This document shows positions 3,426 to 24,615 of a stretch of DNA of 24,705 nucleotides, in pieces. The translations under genes and the position numbers were made by a program. A model generated the notes under the pieces. It was not told the origin of the DNA and searched no databases. It worked only from the letters and a program-made list of their open reading frames with translations. The first letter of the stretch is position 1. Each line of letters opens with the position of its first letter. This DNA is from a virus: positions 1 through 24,705 of IMG/VR virus record IMGVR_UViG_3300025132_000280, one strand, 5' to 3'.

Positions 3426-6119
3426 ATGCCTACCAAGTTTGACTTTTTGTCTCCAGGAATTGAACTGCGAGAAATCGACCAATCGACTGTCGCACCTGTC
3501 CCTGAGAATGACGGAATCCTTCTAATCGGACGAGCCAAGAAAGGCCCCGCGATGAAGCCAATCAAAATTACTTCAACCCAGAACTTTCACGACATCTTTG
3601 GAACTCCAATGGATGGCGTTAAACGAAACGATCCTTGGCGCGAAGGAAACACTGGAGCAGGTGGATGGGGTGCTTATGCCGCTGAAGCTTATCTTGCTGC
3701 TGGTGTTGGTCCCGTTAAGTACATCCGACTTGCTGGTGAAGAAGAGAGTATAAACACTGCTGGTTGGAGTATTACTCAAGCAGACTTCCGAAGTGGTGTT
3801 CTAGCGGCTGCAAGCGACGTTAATGGAGCTCTTGGTATTTTCGTAGGAGAAAACGACGCTGCCGGGGGCGCACACAACGCAGTTTTGGCCGGTATTCTTT
3901 ATGTTGATGGTGCACAATTTGGACTCTACGGTACCGGCCGAGATGGCACAGTCATCCCATCAAGTGCTCCCAGAAGTGCATTCGCTATAGCGGGTGTGTC
4001 CGGTGGATTTACCGGAATATTGGACGCTGGTGGTACTGATATAGAAGACTTCACATTCAACTTTACTGTTGGAGATCAAAACTTTATCAGAAACGTTTTC
4101 AATACAGATCCTACACTTTTCTCAACTGGTGCTGGGCCAAAAAACCTTAAATACTTCTTGGGAGAAACTTTTGAATACAACGTATCTCGACTTGACGCAA
4201 CCAATGGTCTCTATGCCTTTGTAGCACCTATTGAAGAAGCAACTCCTAAGTTTACAGATCACAAATTGAAGATCTCTCCAGCCAAAACTGGTTGGTTTAT
4301 TGGTGCGAGTGACAAGCCATTGTTTAGATTGGCTGCTTTGGACGAAGGAAGTGACTTCCACAAGAACTACGTTGCTAGAATCAAAGACCTCCGTGAGGCA
4401 TCTACTAGTAACCTTGATGCGACTTTCTCGATCGAGATTGCCGAAATTGGAGCACGACCTAACGAATACGTCGAGAAGTTCTCAAACTTGACTTTGAATA
4501 GCGATTCTCCAAACTACATCTCAAAGAAGATTGGAGATGTTTCAACATCATGGAACTCGACAAAAGGAAAGAATGTTACAACTGGTATTTACCAAAATGT
4601 ATCCGACTTGGTGCGCATCGAAGTCGCATCGGGAATCAACAGATCAGACTTGCCTGTTGGCTTCACTGGCCCTGCTCAGATTGCTGATATGTTGATCCTC
4701 CAGGCGGATAACACTAGAACCCTAACTGACGCCGCGTACTTTTGTGGTATGGATGTATTGCCCAACAGTAGCACTAATGCCTTAAGTCTTGAAGACTTAA
4801 AGAGTGGAGACGAAGTGACCGTTACTTACCCAACTCATGGGCTAACAGTAGAAAACTCCTATATCCGTGGCGGCAACTATCCAGCAACAGCTTTGTTTGG
4901 ATTGTCCTATGACGCTCAACAAGGTCGCGAAGATTATGCCGACATCGGATTTAGAAAAGCAGATTACGATCCTCACTTGGATGCAGGTGCTGCTGTAGCA
5001 GGTGCTGCTTACAAATTTACATTGGAGAGCGTAAGAGCAGCTGCAGGATTGTACTACTATGACTCAACATATACCGCCGGTGTTATCTCAACATTGATTG
5101 CTGCTGGTGTTAAACAGTTTGTTGCTCCATTTTTTGGTGGAACTGACGGTGTGGACATCTTGTTGGACAACCCATTCAACGAGACAGAACTTACCTCTTC
5201 TGGATATGCTCAGTATTCAATGGAATCAGCCTTATCTATGGTTGCAGACCGTGACATTATCCGATACGACTTGATCGCTATCCCAGGTGTTACAACTTCA
5301 GCAATCATCCAAGACTTGATTCTTCAAACAGAAAATCGCGGAGACGCTTTGGCTATCATCGACCTCAATGGTATCGATCAAAGTGCTGCCGACACAGGTG
5401 CTGGTGCAGCTGCTGGATCTATCAGTAGTGTAGTTACAGCTGCCGACGGTGGAGTATTCGCATCATCGTATGCTGCTACCTACTATCCAAACATCCGCCT
5501 CAAGGATGTATCAAACGGAAATGGAAGTATCTTGATGGCTCCTCCATCAATCGCTGGTATTGGAGCAATCGCTAGTTCAGAAGGAAAAAGCCAACCATGG
5601 TTCGCTCCTGCTGGTTTCAATCGTGGAGGACTTTCTCCTCTTGGTGGACCTGGTGGTCCGGGTACAGTTGGAACACTCGAGCATTTGAATAAGGCAGATA
5701 GAGATACTCTTTACAATGTCAACATCAACCCAATCGCTCGTTTTCCTGCGACCGGAGACACAGTTATCTTTGGACAAAAAACTCTACAAAACTCTGCTTC
5801 TGCTTTGGATCGCATCAACGTTCGTCGTATGATGATCTACTTGAAGAAAAAAGTTGGAGATATCGCAGACACAATCTTGTTCGAACAAAGTGTTAGCTCG
5901 ACATTTGATAAATTCAAAGGAAGAGTTGAGCCAATCTTGGTTGGACTTAAGAATGAGTTTGGTGTTTCAGAGTACAAGATTATTCTTGATGAAACAACAA
6001 CCACACCTGATCTTCAAGATCGAAACATCATGTACGCAAAAGTATTTGTTAAGCCTGCTAAGGCTATCGAGTTCATCGCAATTGACTTTGTTATCACACA
6101 AAGCGGCGTCGAATTTTAA
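3426..6119 (+). CDS. 18: Tail sheath protein, gp18-like, enlarged
   Basis: An 897-residue contractile sheath subunit. The N-terminus (PGIELREIDQSTVAPVP, then GILLIGRAKKGPA) is typical of gp18. The C-terminal part (about residues 755-897) carries the conserved sheath fold: NINPIARFP, then TVIFGQKTLQ, then LDRINVRRMMIYLKK, and a final AIEFIAIDFVITQSG. A Gly/Pro-rich loop lies near residues 733-748. Known role: sheath subunits polymerize around the tube from the baseplate and contract on infection. It is about 240 residues longer than T4 gp18 (659), the extra being central and presumably surface-exposed. It has its own putative late promoter and a strong AAAGGAG site, consistent with a high-copy protein. 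Confidence 0.96.
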   Translation: MPTKFDFLSPGIELREIDQSTVAPVPENDGILLIGRAKKGPAMKPIKITSTQNFHDIFGTPMDGVKRNDPWREGNTGAGGWGAYAAEAYLAAGVGPVKYIRLAGEEESINTAGWSITQADFRSGVLAAASDVNGALGIFVGENDAAGGAHNAVLAGILYVDGAQFGLYGTGRDGTVIPSSAPRSAFAIAGVSGGFTGILDAGGTDIEDFTFNFTVGDQNFIRNVFNTDPTLFSTGAGPKNLKYFLGETFEYNVSRLDATNGLYAFVAPIEEATPKFTDHKLKISPAKTGWFIGASDKPLFRLAALDEGSDFHKNYVARIKDLREASTSNLDATFSIEIAEIGARPNEYVEKFSNLTLNSDSPNYISKKIGDVSTSWNSTKGKNVTTGIYQNVSDLVRIEVASGINRSDLPVGFTGPAQIADMLILQADNTRTLTDAAYFCGMDVLPNSSTNALSLEDLKSGDEVTVTYPTHGLTVENSYIRGGNYPATALFGLSYDAQQGREDYADIGFRKADYDPHLDAGAAVAGAAYKFTLESVRAAAGLYYYDSTYTAGVISTLIAAGVKQFVAPFFGGTDGVDILLDNPFNETELTSSGYAQYSMESALSMVADRDIIRYDLIAIPGVTTSAIIQDLILQTENRGDALAIIDLNGIDQSAADTGAGAAAGSISSVVTAADGGVFASSYAATYYPNIRLKDVSNGNGSILMAPPSIAGIGAIASSEGKSQPWFAPAGFNRGGLSPLGGPGGPGTVGTLEHLNKADRDTLYNVNINPIARFPATGDTVIFGQKTLQNSASALDRINVRRMMIYLKKKVGDIADTILFEQSVSSTFDKFKGRVEPILVGLKNEFGVSEYKIILDETTTTPDLQDRNIMYAKVFVKPAKAIEFIAIDFVITQSGVEF

Positions 6120-6155: not shown

Positions 6156-6764
6156 ATGGCTTTTTGGACAGAAAACACAACAGAACCTAAGAGAAACTTT
6201 CGTTGGCGCGTAAGAATGGCGAACTTAACAGGTGGAGCGCTCGGACAACTTCCCGGTGCAGACAGCGACGTGGTATGGTGGGCTAAGACAGTTGATACAC
6301 CTAGCTACAGCGTTACAGACGTTACTCACTCATTTTTCGATAACGAATATAAGTTTCCCGGACGAGTTCAATGGCAAGATGTTAACATGACCTTAGTTGA
6401 TCCTATTTCTCCAAATGCGGTTTACATTACAAATCAAATCATCCTATCTTCTGGTTATTCTATCAAAGGAAATGACGCTATCAATATGACCAACAACCGC
6501 AAACCAACCTCTATTACAAAGAGTGCAGCGAACCTTGCTGTAGGTAACGTCTTTTTGGACATCTTCAGTGGAACAGGTGATATTGTAGAATCTTGGGAAA
6601 TGAAGAATCCGTTTATAACCAGTGTGAAGTTCTCTACTCTTGACTACACCAATGACGATATGAGAACAATTGACTTGACTTGGAAGTATGACTTTGCTAC
6701 ATGTCTTAGTAACGATAGCTCTGGGTCTCCTTATGCTGGTGGTTCACAATTCGATTTGACCTAA
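6156..6764 (+). CDS. 19: Tail tube protein, gp19-like (copy 1)
   Basis: A 202-residue tail tube subunit. The start is set by AGGAG and ATG. It has the gp19 pattern: an N-terminal FRWRVRM strand, WWAKTVDTPSYSV, then the FFDNEYKFPGRVQW segment where tubes carry their conserved loop, and later a C-terminal VESWEMKNPFITSVKFSTLDYTNDD (split: VESWEMKNPFIT, SVKFSTLDYTNDD) followed by IDLTWKYDFA. Known role: hexameric rings stack on the baseplate to form the inner tube for DNA passage. It is longer than T4 gp19 (163). A second, shorter paralogue follows 14 bases downstream. This longer copy, next to the sheath gene and behind its own promoter element, is the likelier main tube protein. Confidence 0.92.
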   Translation: MAFWTENTTEPKRNFRWRVRMANLTGGALGQLPGADSDVVWWAKTVDTPSYSVTDVTHSFFDNEYKFPGRVQWQDVNMTLVDPISPNAVYITNQIILSSGYSIKGNDAINMTNNRKPTSITKSAANLAVGNVFLDIFSGTGDIVESWEMKNPFITSVKFSTLDYTNDDMRTIDLTWKYDFATCLSNDSSGSPYAGGSQFDLT

Positions 6765-6778
6765 TAGCGAGGTTCTAA

Positions 6779-7288
6779 ATGTTTTGGAACGAGGCAGGTA
6801 TAGATCCGAGAAGATCCTATAGATTTCGTCTAGGTTCCACCGATGGATTGATCCTTAGTAGTACAGGTCAATCCCCTATATGGTGGAATGCGAAGAAAGT
6901 TGATAAACCATCATTCTCGGTTTCCAGCAATAAGTATCGACTGATTAATCATGAGATCAATATGCCCGGCATCATTTCATGGAACCCAATCACAATTGAA
7001 GTTGCAGATATCGGAGACACAGTAAAGACCTTGCTTGATCAATTAAAAGATTTTGGCTACTCACCAAAAAACTTGGCTGATGACAAAGGGTTATCAAAAT
7101 CCAATGGATCGAGTCACATAGGTGATATCCGCATCCAACAATTTGATGGTGCAGGCAAAATCATTGAGACTTGGAAACTTGAAGGCGCTTACATCACAGA
7201 ATTAAGATTCGGCAACCTTGACTATACATCTGATGAAATCATCAACCTTAATATGACGATTACTTACGACTATGCTTACTTAGACTAA
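6779..7288 (+). CDS. Tail tube paralogue, gp19-like (copy 2)
   Basis: A 169-residue paralogue of the preceding tube protein, with a GAGG ribosome binding site close to ATG. Corresponding blocks are RRSYRFRL, IWWNAKKVDKPSFSV, INHEINMPGIISWNPI and, near the end, IIETWKLEGAYITELRFGNLDYTSDE (split: IIETWKLEGAYIT, ELRFGNLDYTSDE), then NLNMTITYDYAYLD. Shared order and spacing show a common origin, but the two have diverged widely. It may be a second tube component at one end of the tail (initiator or terminator ring), or a co-assembling tube subunit. The sequence does not decide between these. It lies between copy 1 and the gp26-like gene. Confidence 0.85.
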   Translation: MFWNEAGIDPRRSYRFRLGSTDGLILSSTGQSPIWWNAKKVDKPSFSVSSNKYRLINHEINMPGIISWNPITIEVADIGDTVKTLLDQLKDFGYSPKNLADDKGLSKSNGSSHIGDIRIQQFDGAGKIIETWKLEGAYITELRFGNLDYTSDEIINLNMTITYDYAYLD

Positions 7289-19987: not shown

Positions 19988-21169
19988 ATGGATTTTAAAG
20001 CAAAGCAATTTATTGACTTCGAGTCACACAAAATATTTATCGACCGTGCCTTTCAAAGAAAAGCATGTTGGGAAGATAAAACATGTAGAGAGTTTATTCT
20101 CTCCGCCAATAAAGGCCGAGCACCTTACCCGATCATTGTAGCCGATGTTTCATCGGGCTTGTCTTATTCTCAAGCCGAAGATGACGCTGTATCTACTGAG
20201 CAATATGAAAAAATTGTAATGTTTAGAAAGGATTGGATCTCGCTTGATGGACAAAATCGCGTCGAAGCATTCAAGCGACTATTCAGTGATGGCTTGGAAA
20301 TTACAGGTGTATTCATTGATGCTGATGGCTGTAGCGTTGGAGTAAAGAACAAAAAATTTAGTGCCCTGCCGCTAAGACTTCAGGATGCTCTTAAGGATTG
20401 TACAATTTCGGTGACTGTTATGAAAAACTGTCTCTATTCAGAACTTCACGACATTTTTGTAAACATCAACTCAGGTGAACCTTTAAATTCGCAAGAGAAA
20501 CGTAATGCTATCAACACTCCAATCTCGTCTATTATTCGAGATCATGCTGATAGGGTTCAAATTTCTGAAATGTTCTCTAAAATGAGCATGTCGACGGCTT
20601 CGTGGTTTAAAAGATCTATTGATGCAGAGTGGGTGGCGATGATGTATATTTGCACTTTGCAAGATTATGAAACAAGCGCACATTCAACAGACATTGACAG
20701 TTTTTATAAGATTGGGAAGGGAAAGTTCTTTAAAGATGTTCCTCAATACTCGAGAGCTGCAAGGTCGAGATTTAGTAAGATAATCAATTTGCTAGCAAAC
20801 GTAGTTAATAACTACAAGCCGCCTAAAAATTCGCTATCCCAACAGGCATTTTGGGGGATGCTACTAGTTTGTGAACACATAATTGATAACAACCTAGAAA
20901 TCAGTGATTACCAGTCTTTGGCTTCGCTGATTGTAGAGATCAATACAAAACTTTCAGTAGAGTCTAGTATACAATTCAGTAGCGATATGACCAAAGCTGA
21001 GAAACTAGGAGATAAACTCCCAAGCAAAGCAAGTTATTACTTTTACATCCGAGGTGTCTGTAAAGACAAGAACCAAAGAAGCCACAGAAGAAAGGCTTTG
21101 ATCCCTGCTGTTACATCATTGGACAAATTTAAAGACTTACTCGACCTCTCAGAAGAAGAAGTAGCCTAA
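19988..21169 (+). CDS. DUF262-like protein (ParB/GmrS-type fold)
   Basis: A 393-residue protein with TTAGGAG before ATG. Residues 19-48 (DRAFQRKACWEDKTCREFIL, then GRAPYPIIVA) and the motif WISLDGQNRVEAFKRLF (about 83-99) match the DUF262/ParB-like fold, in which D-G-Q-x-R is the signature. LHDIFVNINSGEPLNSQEKR (about 153-172) matches the family's second block, where F-x-x-I/L-N-x-G-x-P-L-x-x-x-E-x-x-N is usual. The C-terminal half is helical and unassigned. DUF262 is the N-terminal domain of the GmrSD/BrxU-type modified-DNA restriction enzymes, but no HNH nuclease motif is seen here. It could act on nucleotides or DNA early in infection, possibly against host functions. Terminator follows. 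Confidence 0.8.
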   Translation: MDFKAKQFIDFESHKIFIDRAFQRKACWEDKTCREFILSANKGRAPYPIIVADVSSGLSYSQAEDDAVSTEQYEKIVMFRKDWISLDGQNRVEAFKRLFSDGLEITGVFIDADGCSVGVKNKKFSALPLRLQDALKDCTISVTVMKNCLYSELHDIFVNINSGEPLNSQEKRNAINTPISSIIRDHADRVQISEMFSKMSMSTASWFKRSIDAEWVAMMYICTLQDYETSAHSTDIDSFYKIGKGKFFKDVPQYSRAARSRFSKIINLLANVVNNYKPPKNSLSQQAFWGMLLVCEHIIDNNLEISDYQSLASLIVEINTKLSVESSIQFSSDMTKAEKLGDKLPSKASYYFYIRGVCKDKNQRSHRRKALIPAVTSLDKFKDLLDLSEEEVA

Positions 21170-21298: not shown

Positions 21299-21556
21299 AT
21301 GACAAACACAAATACTATGACCGTATATACTGCAACTTTTACTACTCAACGCGGAGAGCAACGAGTAATGAATTTCATTCGACCATCTGAAGCACCAAAA
21401 GATGTGTTTCCAACTTACTTTCGAACTCGAAACCTGCAGCCGGGCTATGAAACTGTATGGGATATTGATCGTCAACAATACCGAACATTCAATAATAACA
21501 CCGTGATCGGATCTGTTGTTTCAAACAGCCGAAACGTAATGATTGAATTATTCTAA
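21299..21556 (+). CDS. 85-residue SH3-like phage protein (WYL_2/DUF2693-like)
   Basis: An 85-residue protein, single gene between its own promoter and terminator, with a strong GGAGG six bases from ATG. The pattern VYTATFTTQRGEQRVMNFIR, then NLQPGYETVWDIDRQQYRTF, then NNNTVIGSV resembles the small phage family I recall as DUF2693 (WYL_2, Sm/SH3-like beta barrel): a strand, 'G-x-x-R-x-M-x-F-I/V-R', then 'E-x-V-W-D-x-D'. The family has no assigned function. A dedicated strong promoter and ribosome binding site suggest high expression early in infection. Confidence 0.8.
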   Translation: MTNTNTMTVYTATFTTQRGEQRVMNFIRPSEAPKDVFPTYFRTRNLQPGYETVWDIDRQQYRTFNNNTVIGSVVSNSRNVMIELF

Positions 21557-21577
21557 GTACCTTACGTTAGAAAGGCT

Positions 21578-21607
21578 TGCGCCCTGCCTGAAAAGGGCGC
21601 ACTTTTT
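21578..21607 (+). terminator. Intrinsic terminator after 85-residue gene
   Basis: TGCGCCCT (21578-21585) pairs with AGGGCGCA (21594-21601), eight pairs around an eight-base loop, followed by CTTTTT. It closes the E3 unit. Confidence 0.93.
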
Positions 21608-21660
21608 ACAAAAACTCAAAATCCTCGAAATTTTTTTTTGACCTTTTTTTGAGATTCTAC

Positions 21661-21689
21661 TTGACAAACCATTTTGAATATGTTATAAT
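21661..21689 (+). promoter_or_regulatory. Early sigma-70-type promoter E4 (gene 32)
   Basis: TTGACA (21661-21666), 17 bases, then perfect TATAAT (21684-21689) with TGT before it. It drives gene 32 from about 95 bases upstream, giving an unusually long leader for this phage. Confidence 0.93.
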
Positions 21690-21716
21690 ATTATATAACG
21701 AAACGACTTTAAACGG

Positions 21717-21750
21717 GGACGGGATGAAAAACTAGCCTGTCCACCTTAGT
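21717..21750 (+). promoter_or_regulatory. Gene 32 leader hairpin, possible pseudoknot
   Basis: GGACGGG (21717-21723) pairs with CCTGTCC (21736-21742), seven pairs with one G-T. The last loop bases ACTAG (21731-21735) can pair with TTAGT (21746-21750) just after the stem, giving an H-type pseudoknot. It ends about 40 bases before the gene 32 ATG, and the rest of the leader is A-rich and unstructured. T4 gene 32 mRNA has a pseudoknot at about -67 to -40 that nucleates gp32 binding for translational autoregulation, so an analogous role is inferred. The 3-base connecting loop across a 7-pair stem is tight, and only a hairpin may form. Confidence 0.5.
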
Positions 21751-21789
21751 GATAACACACAAAAAAATAACCAAACTTAGGAGTAAATT

Positions 21790-22563
21790 ATGGCTATTAA
21801 TATTGAAGCAATGCGAGCGAAGCTCGAACAATCAAAGAACGGAAAGAAGGCATCTGGTAAGAATTCTACCATGTGGAAGCCCCAAGCTGGAGCACAACAC
21901 ATCCGAATCCTCCCCACAGCAGATGGCGACCCGTTCCGTGAATTCCACTTTCACTACAATGTAGGAAAGAACCCTGGAATCTACTGCAACAAGCGAAATG
22001 ATGGTGGCGAATGCCCTATCTGTGACTTCGCATCAAAACTTTGGCGAGAAGGTACTGAAACTGACGATCAAAACCTCAAAAACGAAGCTAAAAAATTGTT
22101 CGCCCGAAAGCGATACTATTCACCAGTACTGGTTCGTGGAAATGAATCACAAGGTGTAAAAATCTGGGCTTATGGAAAGACCGCATATGAAACTTTGCTG
22201 GGCTACGTGCTTGATCCTGACTATGGAGATATCACCGACCCTCAAACAGGGACAGACATCAAGTTAACTTACACACTTGCATCTGGACCCGGCGCTTTCC
22301 CTAAAACCGGCCTACAACCTCGTCGTCGCCCATCAATCTTGTGCGATGATAGTGTTGGAAACTGTGAGGAGTTACTTGACTCTGTACCAGTTATCGACAA
22401 CCTGTTTGATGTTAAAACAGTTGATGAAGTACGGGCTCTGCTGGATGGTTACCTGTCCTCCGACTCTTCAGCAGAATCCTCGTCTAACGAGACTCAACGT
22501 GGAAAACCTCAAACAGGTCAGGATGTAGACAAAGCTTTCGCAGCGTTCATGAATGATGAATAA
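21790..22563 (+). CDS. 32: Single-stranded DNA-binding protein gp32
   Basis: A 257-residue gp32 with TTAGGAG upstream of ATG. The zinc site is intact: H53-x12-C66-x8-C75-x2-C78 (around YCNKRNDGGECPICDFASKL), matching T4's His-Cys3 arrangement. The N-terminal part has basic residues (KLEQSKNGKKASGKN) for cooperative self-interaction. The core has aromatic strands (FHFHYN, RYYSPVL, IWAYGKTAYETLLGY). The C-terminus is Ser/Asp/Glu-rich and ends in an acidic DKAFAAFMNDE, as expected for the protein-interaction tail. Known role: coats single-stranded DNA in replication, recombination and repair, and represses its own mRNA translation. It is shorter than T4 gp32 (301). A strong terminator follows. 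Confidence 0.97.
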   Translation: MAINIEAMRAKLEQSKNGKKASGKNSTMWKPQAGAQHIRILPTADGDPFREFHFHYNVGKNPGIYCNKRNDGGECPICDFASKLWREGTETDDQNLKNEAKKLFARKRYYSPVLVRGNESQGVKIWAYGKTAYETLLGYVLDPDYGDITDPQTGTDIKLTYTLASGPGAFPKTGLQPRRRPSILCDDSVGNCEELLDSVPVIDNLFDVKTVDEVRALLDGYLSSDSSAESSSNETQRGKPQTGQDVDKAFAAFMNDE

Positions 22564-22592
22564 GTCGTAGACCTCCTGTGTTGTAGGGAATT

Positions 22593-22629
22593 GCCGCCCG
22601 CCCTTGGTTATCAAAAGGGGCGGCTTTTT
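22593..22629 (+). terminator. Intrinsic terminator after gene 32
   Basis: GCCGCCC (22593-22599) pairs with GGGCGGC (22618-22624), followed by TTTTTA. The stem is fully G/C. There is no recognisable promoter between it and the next gene (22645), so OMP, lipoprotein and uvsX depend on read-through, or on a promoter class not recognised here. Confidence 0.93.
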
Positions 22630-22644
22630 ATTAAGGAGACAATA

Positions 22645-23175
22645 ATGTTTAAAAAGATTTTAACATGTATGGCGATGGGTTTAGGCCTATCACTACCAGC
22701 ACAAGCAGATGATCACGCAATCGGCGGAAACAATGAAAACACCGAAATGGAATGGAACCACAGAAAAGGAATGAGACTTGGATGGGTTTATCTAAACAAC
22801 GGAGAAGAACATGAGAGGTTAAAATCCCCACACATGTTTACGATGGGTTATGAAATCCAATCAGTTATGGATGGTGGCTCATGGTTGGACCTACTTTTCA
22901 TTCAAAACGTACTTGTTAGTGGTTTAGACCAAAGCGTCTTGTTACCTTCCGCTAGCAGCTTAGTCGGCTTTGAAATCAACGACACTTTGCAGTTGGCTGT
23001 AGGTGGAAACGTGACTGTTGTAGATCCAGCCAATCAAGGAAATCTTGTTCATTTGGTTGCCGCAGCGGGCGCAACTTTTGATGCGGGAATCTTTAGTGTT
23101 CCAGTACACATCATTTATATTCCAGACATTAATGGCTATTACCGCGTAGCAGCCACAACTGGAGTGAACTGGTAG
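22645..23175 (+). CDS. Secreted outer-membrane-like protein
   Basis: A 176-residue protein starting at ATG 22645 behind AAGGAG; an in-frame ATG at 22591 lies in the terminator and is rejected. The first 21 residues are a good signal peptide: MFKKI, hydrophobic core, then LPAQA before DD. The mature part alternates hydrophobic and polar residues in short strands (for example WLDLLFIQNVLV, LQLAVGGNVTVV, VHLVAAAGATF, VPVHIIYI) and ends VAATTGVNW, an aromatic C-terminus as in outer-membrane beta-barrels. This suggests a small phage-encoded outer-membrane barrel that would change the host surface, for example blocking superinfection. Placement between gp32 and uvsX is unusual. No homologue recognised. 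Confidence 0.78.
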   Translation: MFKKILTCMAMGLGLSLPAQADDHAIGGNNENTEMEWNHRKGMRLGWVYLNNGEEHERLKSPHMFTMGYEIQSVMDGGSWLDLLFIQNVLVSGLDQSVLLPSASSLVGFEINDTLQLAVGGNVTVVDPANQGNLVHLVAAAGATFDAGIFSVPVHIIYIPDINGYYRVAATTGVNW

Positions 23176-23225
23176 ACAACTTAAGTTGTAAAAAACCGCA
23201 GGAAGGCACGGGTCACAGGTGCCTT
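23176..23225 (+). other. Palindrome and hairpin before the lipoprotein gene
   Basis: A perfect 14-base palindrome ACAACTTAAGTTGT (23176-23189) directly follows the OMP stop and is followed by six A. Further on, AAGGCAC (23203-23209) pairs with GTGCCTT (23219-23225) around a nine-base loop, without a clear T tract. They may be a weak terminator, mRNA processing or stability structure, or a protein-binding site. Confidence 0.4.
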
Positions 23226-23253
23226 ATTGATTACTAATGCTATAGGAGCAAAA

Positions 23254-23397
23254 ATGACTACATTACTATTGACACTACTTTTCGCTTGCGGAGAGAAAGA
23301 AGAGGAAACAGATTCAGCAACCGAAGAAGTTGAAGAAGCTGTTGAAGAAACCCCTGAAGAAGAAGCTGAAGATACAGCGGCTTCCGAGGAGGAGTAA
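23254..23397 (+). CDS. Small acidic lipoprotein
   Basis: A 47-residue frame with AGGAG and ATG, ending directly before uvsX. The product begins MTTLLLTLLFACGEKEEE: a hydrophobic signal and a lipobox-like LFAC with the lipidated Cys at position 12. The mature part is almost all Glu, Ala, Thr, Asp and Val, an extended acidic linker with no predicted fold. The signal lacks a positive n-region, so export is likely but not certain. It lies behind the outer-membrane-like protein, with which it may act at the host envelope. The alternative is a purely acidic cytoplasmic peptide. Confidence 0.6.
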   Translation: MTTLLLTLLFACGEKEEETDSATEEVEEAVEETPEEEAEDTAASEEE

Positions 23398-24504
23398 ATG
23401 ACTAAGGCAGGAAAGATCGACATTAACTCGATGAAGAAATTCGTCAACAAAAAAGTTGGGCTAGATATTGCTCATGATTTGAATGAAGACAATCCTACCG
23501 AAGTCAAAGAATGGATTCCAACTGGTTCGCGCTGGTTGGACTCTATTATCTGCCGAGGTCAAATGGCTGGTATTCCCGTCGGGAAGATCACTGAATTAGC
23601 CGGACTGTCTTCGGCCGGTAAGTCTTACATGGCTTGTCAAATAGCCACTCAAGCACAAAAGAAAGGACATTGCGTTGTTTACTTTGATGCAGAGTCGGCA
23701 ATCGATCCAACTTTTCTTACAAGTACTGGTATCGATATCAACAATGACTTCTTGTACATTCAAGCGGTCTCAGTTGAGAAAACATTGGAGACCATTGAGG
23801 ATCTCATGACTGAATATCCAGAAACACAGTTTCTATTTATTTGGGACTCAATCGCAGCGACTTCTTCAGAGAAGGACCTCGAGGGAGACTTCAATCCTCA
23901 ATCGTCAATGGCGGTAAAGCCTCGGATCTTTGCGAAAGCATTCCCGAAACTCACTATCCCATTGGCTAATCAACAATGTACACTGTTGCTTATCAACCAA
24001 CTAAAGACCAACATCGCAGCACAAGGCTGGGAAGCCCTAGTGACTCCGTATGTTGCTCCCGGTGGTAAAGCAATTGAATATTTCTGCTCTCTACGAATTT
24101 GGCTTACAAAACCAAAATCTAAGAAATACTTCATCACTGATGAAAATGGACTCCGCGAAGGATCGTCAGTAAAAGTTAAGATTGAAAAGTCTCGCTTTGG
24201 ATCTGAAGGTCGCACATGTGGATTTCAAATCACATGGGGTAAGAGCGTAGGTATTCAAGATGAAGAATCTTGGTTTGAAGCGTTGAAGTTATCTGGCTCC
24301 CCACGTTTCAAGACTGGTGCATGGAACAAAATGTTTGACCGCAAAGGCAAGGAGTTTAAGTTTCAACGCTCCAGTTGGATCAAAAAGCTTCAAGACAAGG
24401 ACTTCCGAGCATGCGTGTTCGACATCATGGATGAGCAAATCATCAAACTCTTTGAGTCCGAAGGTAAGAACTTTGGTATCGAAGGAGAGTCCGAAGAAGG
24501 TTAA
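23398..24504 (+). CDS. uvsX: UvsX/RecA-type recombinase
   Basis: A 368-residue recombinase; the GAGGAG site lies within the end of the lipoprotein gene and ATG follows its stop directly. Walker A is GLSSAGKS (69-76). The catalytic Glu E99 lies in VYFDAESAID, as in RecA FIDAEHALD. Walker B is FLFIWDSIAA, with D150. A segment LLINQLKTNIAAQGWEALVT matches the region around loop L2, followed by a PGGKAIEYF segment as in RecA. The acidic C-terminus is short. Known role: strand exchange for recombination-dependent replication and repair, working with gp32. UvsY and the Dda-type helicases are not in this window. A terminator follows. Confidence 0.96.
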   Translation: MTKAGKIDINSMKKFVNKKVGLDIAHDLNEDNPTEVKEWIPTGSRWLDSIICRGQMAGIPVGKITELAGLSSAGKSYMACQIATQAQKKGHCVVYFDAESAIDPTFLTSTGIDINNDFLYIQAVSVEKTLETIEDLMTEYPETQFLFIWDSIAATSSEKDLEGDFNPQSSMAVKPRIFAKAFPKLTIPLANQQCTLLLINQLKTNIAAQGWEALVTPYVAPGGKAIEYFCSLRIWLTKPKSKKYFITDENGLREGSSVKVKIEKSRFGSEGRTCGFQITWGKSVGIQDEESWFEALKLSGSPRFKTGAWNKMFDRKGKEFKFQRSSWIKKLQDKDFRACVFDIMDEQIIKLFESEGKNFGIEGESEEG

Positions 24505-24523
24505 ATCCTGAAGGAACTCGTCT

Positions 24524-24553
24524 ACCCCTTCTCTTCGGAGTTGGGGTTTTTTT
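24524..24553 (+). terminator. Intrinsic terminator after uvsX
   Basis: ACCCC (24524-24528) pairs with GGGGT (24543-24547), with CTC (24531-24533) and GAG (24538-24540) stacked inside around a TTCG tetraloop, separated by a T-T internal mismatch. It is followed by seven T. Confidence 0.85.
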
Positions 24554-24564
24554 GTCTTTTCTAC

Positions 24565-24593
24565 TTGACAAACCTCGTAGAAAATGTTAAAAT
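24565..24593 (+). promoter_or_regulatory. Early sigma-70-type promoter E5
   Basis: TTGACA (24565-24570), 17 bases, then TAAAAT (24588-24593) with TGT before it. The -35 region (CTACTTGACAAACC) is identical to E4. Confidence 0.85.
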
Positions 24594-24615
24594 ATTTATA
24601 CATCTTGGAGGATAA

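Follow-up and report, generated by a model that had tools for sequence, protein, structure and literature searches.

A predicted outer-membrane barrel gene, a uvsX-linked lipoprotein gene and a recurrent pseudoknot in the gp32-uvsX region of T4-like phages

Phage T5 encodes a small lipoprotein, Llp, that acts on the receptor FhuA from the periplasm and jams it (PMC9586334). In the operator of T4 gene 32 mRNA, an A+U-rich stretch connects an H-type pseudoknot to the ribosome site, and a review from 2010 considered the T4-type gene 32 pseudoknot to be possibly the sole viral example in translation autoregulation (PMC3014915).

Here, we analyze a virus record of 24,705 bases (the window, in its full length), which encodes tail sheath, tail tube, baseplate-hub, DNA polymerase-like, gp32 and UvsX proteins. 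Between gp32 and uvsX it carries a gene for an eight-stranded outer-membrane β-barrel protein, as predicted from its sequence, and a gene for a small acidic lipoprotein, with an H-type pseudoknot between the two. The pseudoknot is the strongest unexpected result of the analysis; it is undescribed so far, and the barrel is missing from curated family libraries. A literature search, with most subscription journals outside its reach, returned no relevant report either of an intercistronic phage pseudoknot or of such a phage-encoded barrel. Marine T4-like phages repeatedly insert a bacterial-type outer-membrane protein gene in their core replication operon. With a swappable barrel and a conserved, uvsX-linked lipoprotein both located there, takeover of the envelope may be tied to the programme of replication.

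The gp32-uvsX unit and its exchangeable cassette

We hold the anatomy of this region with high confidence. The unit begins with a gp32-like single-strand DNA-binding protein gene (21790..22563, + strand; Pfam PF08804, 2e-15; PHROG 1192, 3.5e-30) and ends with a UvsX-like recombinase gene (23398..24504, + strand; Pfam RecA, 2.4e-35; PHROG 97 (UvsX-like), 7e-57). A sigma70-like promoter 5' of gp32, TTGACA-17-TATAAT (21661..21689, + strand), agrees with the consensus at 12 of 12 positions and is the likely source of the cargo-carrying transcript. Early or middle expression of the barrel and the lipoprotein is plausible, because this strong site serving the unit lies upstream of gp32. The left edge of the cargo cassette, 3' of gp32, is marked by a terminator-like GC hairpin with a T-run (22593..22629, + strand), which recurs with changes in relatives; the predicted fold of 22564-22644 has a free energy of -25.2 kcal/mol (z -1.6). 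With this hairpin between gp32 and the barrel gene, the barrel may be weakly expressed or depend on another source of transcript. In the stretch directly after gp32 (22564-22629), CCTCCTGTGTTGTAGGG precedes the hairpin, an arrangement kept with compensating changes in most relatives, and a CCTCC in this stretch could pair with the barrel Shine-Dalgarno sequence in the predicted fold. Elsewhere in the window, the tail sheath protein (3426-6119) is unusually long at 897 aa, and two consecutive tail-tube-like genes occupy 6156-7288.

The barrel gene is part of an exchangeable cassette (22630..23243, + strand). A related locus, L024, aligns with the window at 97% identity over 21300-22629 and at 90% over 23244-24596, while the part between does not align and a different gene of 340 aa replaces 22630-23243. 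Replacement in a close relative, as described for morons, is therefore seen here, and the cassette itself has no promoter-like site and a terminator-like hairpin on its left side only. Of 37 phage loci examined, 13 have the barrel gene in the gp32-uvsX interval, counting those in which it directly follows gp32 at a contig end, and in L154 and L173 it is the sole sizeable gene between the two; in 14 other loci it is no more than about 750 bases away from a tRNA or tmRNA gene. Together with the L024 replacement, these positions mark the barrel gene as a passenger that can be swapped and that prefers one slot. The original prediction had described a barrel with an acidic lipoprotein as not usual among T4-type replication genes, which is inexact in view of the recurrence of the barrel at the gp32-uvsX position.

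The interval from gp32 to uvsX ranges from 85 to 2935 bases in relatives and contains ClpP-like, FKBP-like, ATPase-like, and ParB- or DUF262-like genes, as assigned by reading the sequences. In the window, a GmrSD N-domain/DUF262-like protein is encoded upstream of gp32 (19988-21169; 31.3 bits in Pfam against a cut-off of 33.2), whereas relatives of this protein lie between gp32 and uvsX in L036, L041, L055, L057, L075 and L079, suggesting that cargo moves within the region. FKBP-type prolyl isomerase-like genes recur beside the barrel gene in the gp32-uvsX slot of five loci (L153 5559-5999, L155 1154-1594, L158 626-1066, L177 6593-7030, L181 5105-5536). Additionally, phage tmRNA genes with unusual tag peptides, for example ANNNTHFEAARLAA and ANDDVEIFEDFALAA, occur near the barrel gene (L003 4645-4981, L004 3886-4258, L013 4344-4680, L140 5643-5975, L018 3114-3418), and a 235-kb phage contig encodes directly 3' of it a second barrel-looking protein with a signal peptide and a final MYFW (L005 5563-6090).

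The barrel protein, its relatives and its probable job

Both open reading frames exist as originally predicted, each with a Shine-Dalgarno sequence. That of the barrel (22645..23175, + strand, 176 aa; MFKKILTCMAMGLGLSLPAQA|DDHAIGG...TTGVNW) is preceded by AAGGAG at 22633-22638. Codons 1-21 encode a type I signal peptide by inspection (MFKK, a hydrophobic core and an AxA site), and the mature part starts at codon 22 (22708); the signal peptide is kept in aligned members, and every complete phage member aligned ends in W. AlphaFold2 predicts eight strands (16-29, 42-54, 60-71, 79-90, 94-103, 114-126, 129-139 and 145-154) with a pLDDT of 89.6 and a pTM of 0.79 from 36 sequences, while an alignment of 5 sequences gave a pLDDT of 42.8. 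Foldseek and VIA place the model with OmpA, Ail, OmpW, PagL, OprF and NspA, the VIA Z scores being 15.5 for OmpW, 15.1 for PagL, 15.0 for OprF and 14.8 for NspA. Over the 36 sequences, outward strand positions are hydrophobic (mean hydropathy +1.86) and inward positions polar (-0.56), a contrast biased toward this result by the use of hydropathy to assign facing. Inward positions are also more conserved (entropy 0.69, against 1.25 outward), a difference that played no part in the assignment.

The predicted fold, the in-out pattern, the kept signal peptide and the final W give good reason to infer that the protein is exported and inserted in the outer membrane. The earlier claim of a secreted barrel, for which structure prediction had been set as the test, is thereby supported. 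The barrel matches no Pfam, PHROG, NCBIfam or PDB sequence family; for Pfam OMP_b-brl (PF13505), the window barrel has no match and one of 14 members reaches an E-value of 0.083. Related barrel pairs show dN/dS values of 0.024-0.14, with one pair saturated, and the low dN/dS of the barrel and of the lipoprotein (see below) indicates that neither reading frame is due to chance.

Relatives of the barrel were gathered from IMG/VR; the family comprises the 37 phage loci and copies on the chromosomes of one bacterial order, where 15 of 63 genomes carry it; a 379-genome sample of that phylum added five further genomes, one of them weak. No relative was detected by sequence among 50,697 phage records, and of two bacterial pattern scans the first found none and the second one contig, which belongs to this order. 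Three chromosomal copies had no recognisable phage genes around them when read by eye. A quick tree puts the phage barrels on one side and the chromosomal ones on the other (SH-aLRT 99), with three chromosomal exceptions that group with the phages, namely G079, G284 and G066, the last long-branched and unsure. The first two (G079, L199 8841-9476; G284, L200 9736-10296) may reflect transfer, either phage-to-host or host-to-phage. Large genomes and CNGIDDDCDG proteins suggest that these genomes may be Myxococcota; no 16S rRNA was found in seven genomes examined, and a search for a host link via gp32 in the 63 genomes returned no match and was uninformative. The family nonetheless ties uncultured phages to the order with chromosomal copies, which gives a lead to their hosts.

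Position, family and swapping of the barrel are evident at the sequence level, and we favor, at a probability of roughly 0.4, the reading that a host-derived barrel preserves or reshapes the outer membrane while infection proceeds. Phages would have captured a host-type outer-membrane protein gene, which would be translated at an early or middle stage of infection, probably from the transcript of gp32. A type I signal peptide would direct the product to Sec for export, and its C-terminal ...GVNW would direct it to BAM for insertion as an eight-stranded barrel. Its most likely job, as a phage-made copy of a host barrel, would be to keep or reset outer-membrane permeability or integrity once host gene expression falls. 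As swappable cargo, the barrel gene resembles the tRNA, tmRNA, FKBP-like and ClpP-like genes found nearby or in the same slot in relatives. This reading is favored because the lumen is conserved, selection is purifying and the neighbors in relatives include other host-housekeeping genes. Against it, the inside of eight-stranded barrels is often conserved for packing alone.

Superinfection exclusion is the main alternative, tentative and less probable than not, in which the barrel, and separately the lipoprotein, would mask, replace or jam a host receptor shortly after infection so that related phages cannot adsorb or inject. A surface-type protein and a small lipoprotein encoded in an operon that is likely expressed early would fit such a role, and the porin gene of phage PA-2, which alters the receptor of that phage, is a comparable case. 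The action of T5 Llp on FhuA is a further precedent (PMC9586334). However, the barrel is under strong purifying selection rather than diversifying, and its most conserved residues lie in the lumen and the short loop 72-78; the lipoprotein, for its part, differs from Llp in having one cysteine and no adjoining receptor-binding gene.

The uvsX-linked lipoprotein and the intercistronic pseudoknot

The second reading frame (23254..23397, + strand; Shine-Dalgarno AGGAG at 23244-23248) encodes 47 aa, MTTLLLTLLFA|CGEKEEE..., with the lipobox LFA|C and its cysteine, the only one in the protein, at codon 12. Given the lipobox, the mature product should be a lipid-anchored acidic peptide. Across the family, the start LL...ACG(D/E)KE is constant and the acidic tail variable, for a total of 45 to 77 residues. 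Over 29 distinct sequences, chosen by motif but in agreement with a motif-free extraction, the first 17 codons have a dN/dS of about 0.10, and pairwise differences by codon position (1157/298/2607) are dominated by the third. The lipoprotein-like peptide proposed for the gp32-uvsX unit is supported, with a lipobox cysteine kept in relatives. A Bacteroidota surface-lipoprotein export signal, C-X-K-(D/E)2, was considered and ruled out, as CG(D/E)KE has its lysine at +4 instead of +3, and lysine is absent at +4 in the set that defines the signal (PMC5080379).

The original prediction had treated the lipoprotein and the barrel as a pair, which the search of relatives contradicts. Of 49 loci whose UvsX shares 79% identity or more, 46 have the lipoprotein gene directly 5' of uvsX, nearly all of them without the barrel, and close upstream of uvsX in two more distant loci. 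Among 80 uvsX loci, both genes occur together in just the near-copy of the window, and the remaining gp32-barrel-uvsX intervals showed no lipoprotein of this kind. A functional pair is accordingly rejected: the lipoprotein follows uvsX and the barrel is exchangeable cargo, so that, on gene order, the lipoprotein is linked to uvsX in its own right and is not the partner of the barrel.

We find it unlikely that the 47-aa frame is mainly a leader that couples translation to uvsX, with a product of little importance. In nearly all loci the lipoprotein stop codon adjoins or overlaps the start of uvsX, the final Glu codons provide a purine-rich ribosome site and tail length is highly variable, all of which a leader would explain; yet coupling alone requires neither the kept hydrophobic start and lipobox cysteine nor the dN/dS found over them. 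Nor would it need the second tandem lipoprotein that several relatives encode 5' of the uvsX-linked one. This second small frame lies directly 5' of the first in L062 (2407-2646; for example MRLLLLMLFACGDEE...) and is also present in L039, L054, L069, L071-L073 and L075.

Between the barrel and lipoprotein genes, at 23195..23225 (+ strand), lies an H-type pseudoknot in which stem 1 pairs 23195-23197 with 23211-23213 and stem 2 pairs 23203-23209 with 23219-23225. The loci fetched contain 158 non-redundant copies, and a scan of viral contigs gave at least 119 pseudoknot stretches, placing the element in more than 100 phage contigs. In 44 copies of equal length, 98% of cells pair and 59 cells have both sides changed, against 18.7 in shuffles, a signal abolished by sliding the partners. 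Moreover, among 29 cores kept out of the definition, the outer pair of stem 1 is present in 28 and takes all four Watson-Crick forms. The element matches no Rfam family, and with covariation in two stems it offers a concrete regulatory element to test.

In 132 of the 158 copies, the pseudoknot lies 5-14 bases 3' of the stop codon that ends a frame of 45 codons or longer, the next start codon is mostly 16-31 bases downstream, and the spacer to the ribosome site is 81% AT, compared with 58% for the contigs. For the window copy, the distance to the closest gene stop is 19 bases. Up to three copies occur per gp32-uvsX region, before many different genes; L177, for instance, has pseudoknots at 5947, 6534 and 8065. 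A role in stop-codon read-through was rejected, as the next starts fall in three frames (47/39/34) and just 18 of 120 combine the right frame with an open reading path. A further reading, which we consider doubtful, is that the pseudoknot wires the cargo slot to the state of replication, such that envelope proteins, the barrel and the lipoprotein among them, would be made in step with DNA replication; the element might then be recognised by the terminating ribosome or by a protein of the phage, perhaps the gp32-like one.

Comparison with described systems

The window barrel resembles OmpW, the OprF/OmpA N-domain, NspA and Ail/OmpX in its signal peptide, eight antiparallel strands, alternation and C-terminal aromatic residue (VIA Z 11-15.5), but it shares 6-15% identity with them, belongs to no curated family and is carried as phage cargo. 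Small outer-membrane barrels are also predicted in Vibrio phage nt-1 (R9TIU5) and Synechococcus phage S-CBWM1 (A0A3G1L3F6), which have the same type of fold as the window barrel at 9-10% identity. PagL is likewise similar in fold (Foldseek TM 0.57; VIA Z 15.1, rmsd 2.0 over 121 residues). That the barrel is a PagL- or PagP-like enzyme acting on lipid A or phospholipid, thereby altering the surface or easing lysis, is nevertheless improbable and was set aside: PagL is among the best fold matches and His42, Asp61, His115, His134 and Asp140 (mature numbering) are conserved, but a common fold does not imply function, the conserved polar residues point mostly into the lumen by alternation, and Leu-Val follows His115 in place of the His-x-Ser that forms the catalytic motif of PagL.

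Like T5 Llp and Cor, the window lipoprotein is small, phage-encoded and equipped with a signal peptide and a lipobox, here LLFAC. Llp is a fair analogy for how it might act (PMC9586334). Llp, however, is encoded beside the receptor-binding protein gene and has a disulphide, whereas the window lipoprotein precedes uvsX and, with its single cysteine, would have none; its mature part is acidic and of low complexity, unlike Llp and Cor. The window pseudoknot, finally, shares the layout of the T4 gene 32 operator, in which A+U-rich sequence separates an H-type pseudoknot from the ribosome site. The T4 pseudoknot is single and upstream of gene 32, while that of the window lies downstream of gp32, between cargo cistrons and just after a stop; if coupling to replication were true, these elements would amount to the T4 gene 32 operator in distributed form.
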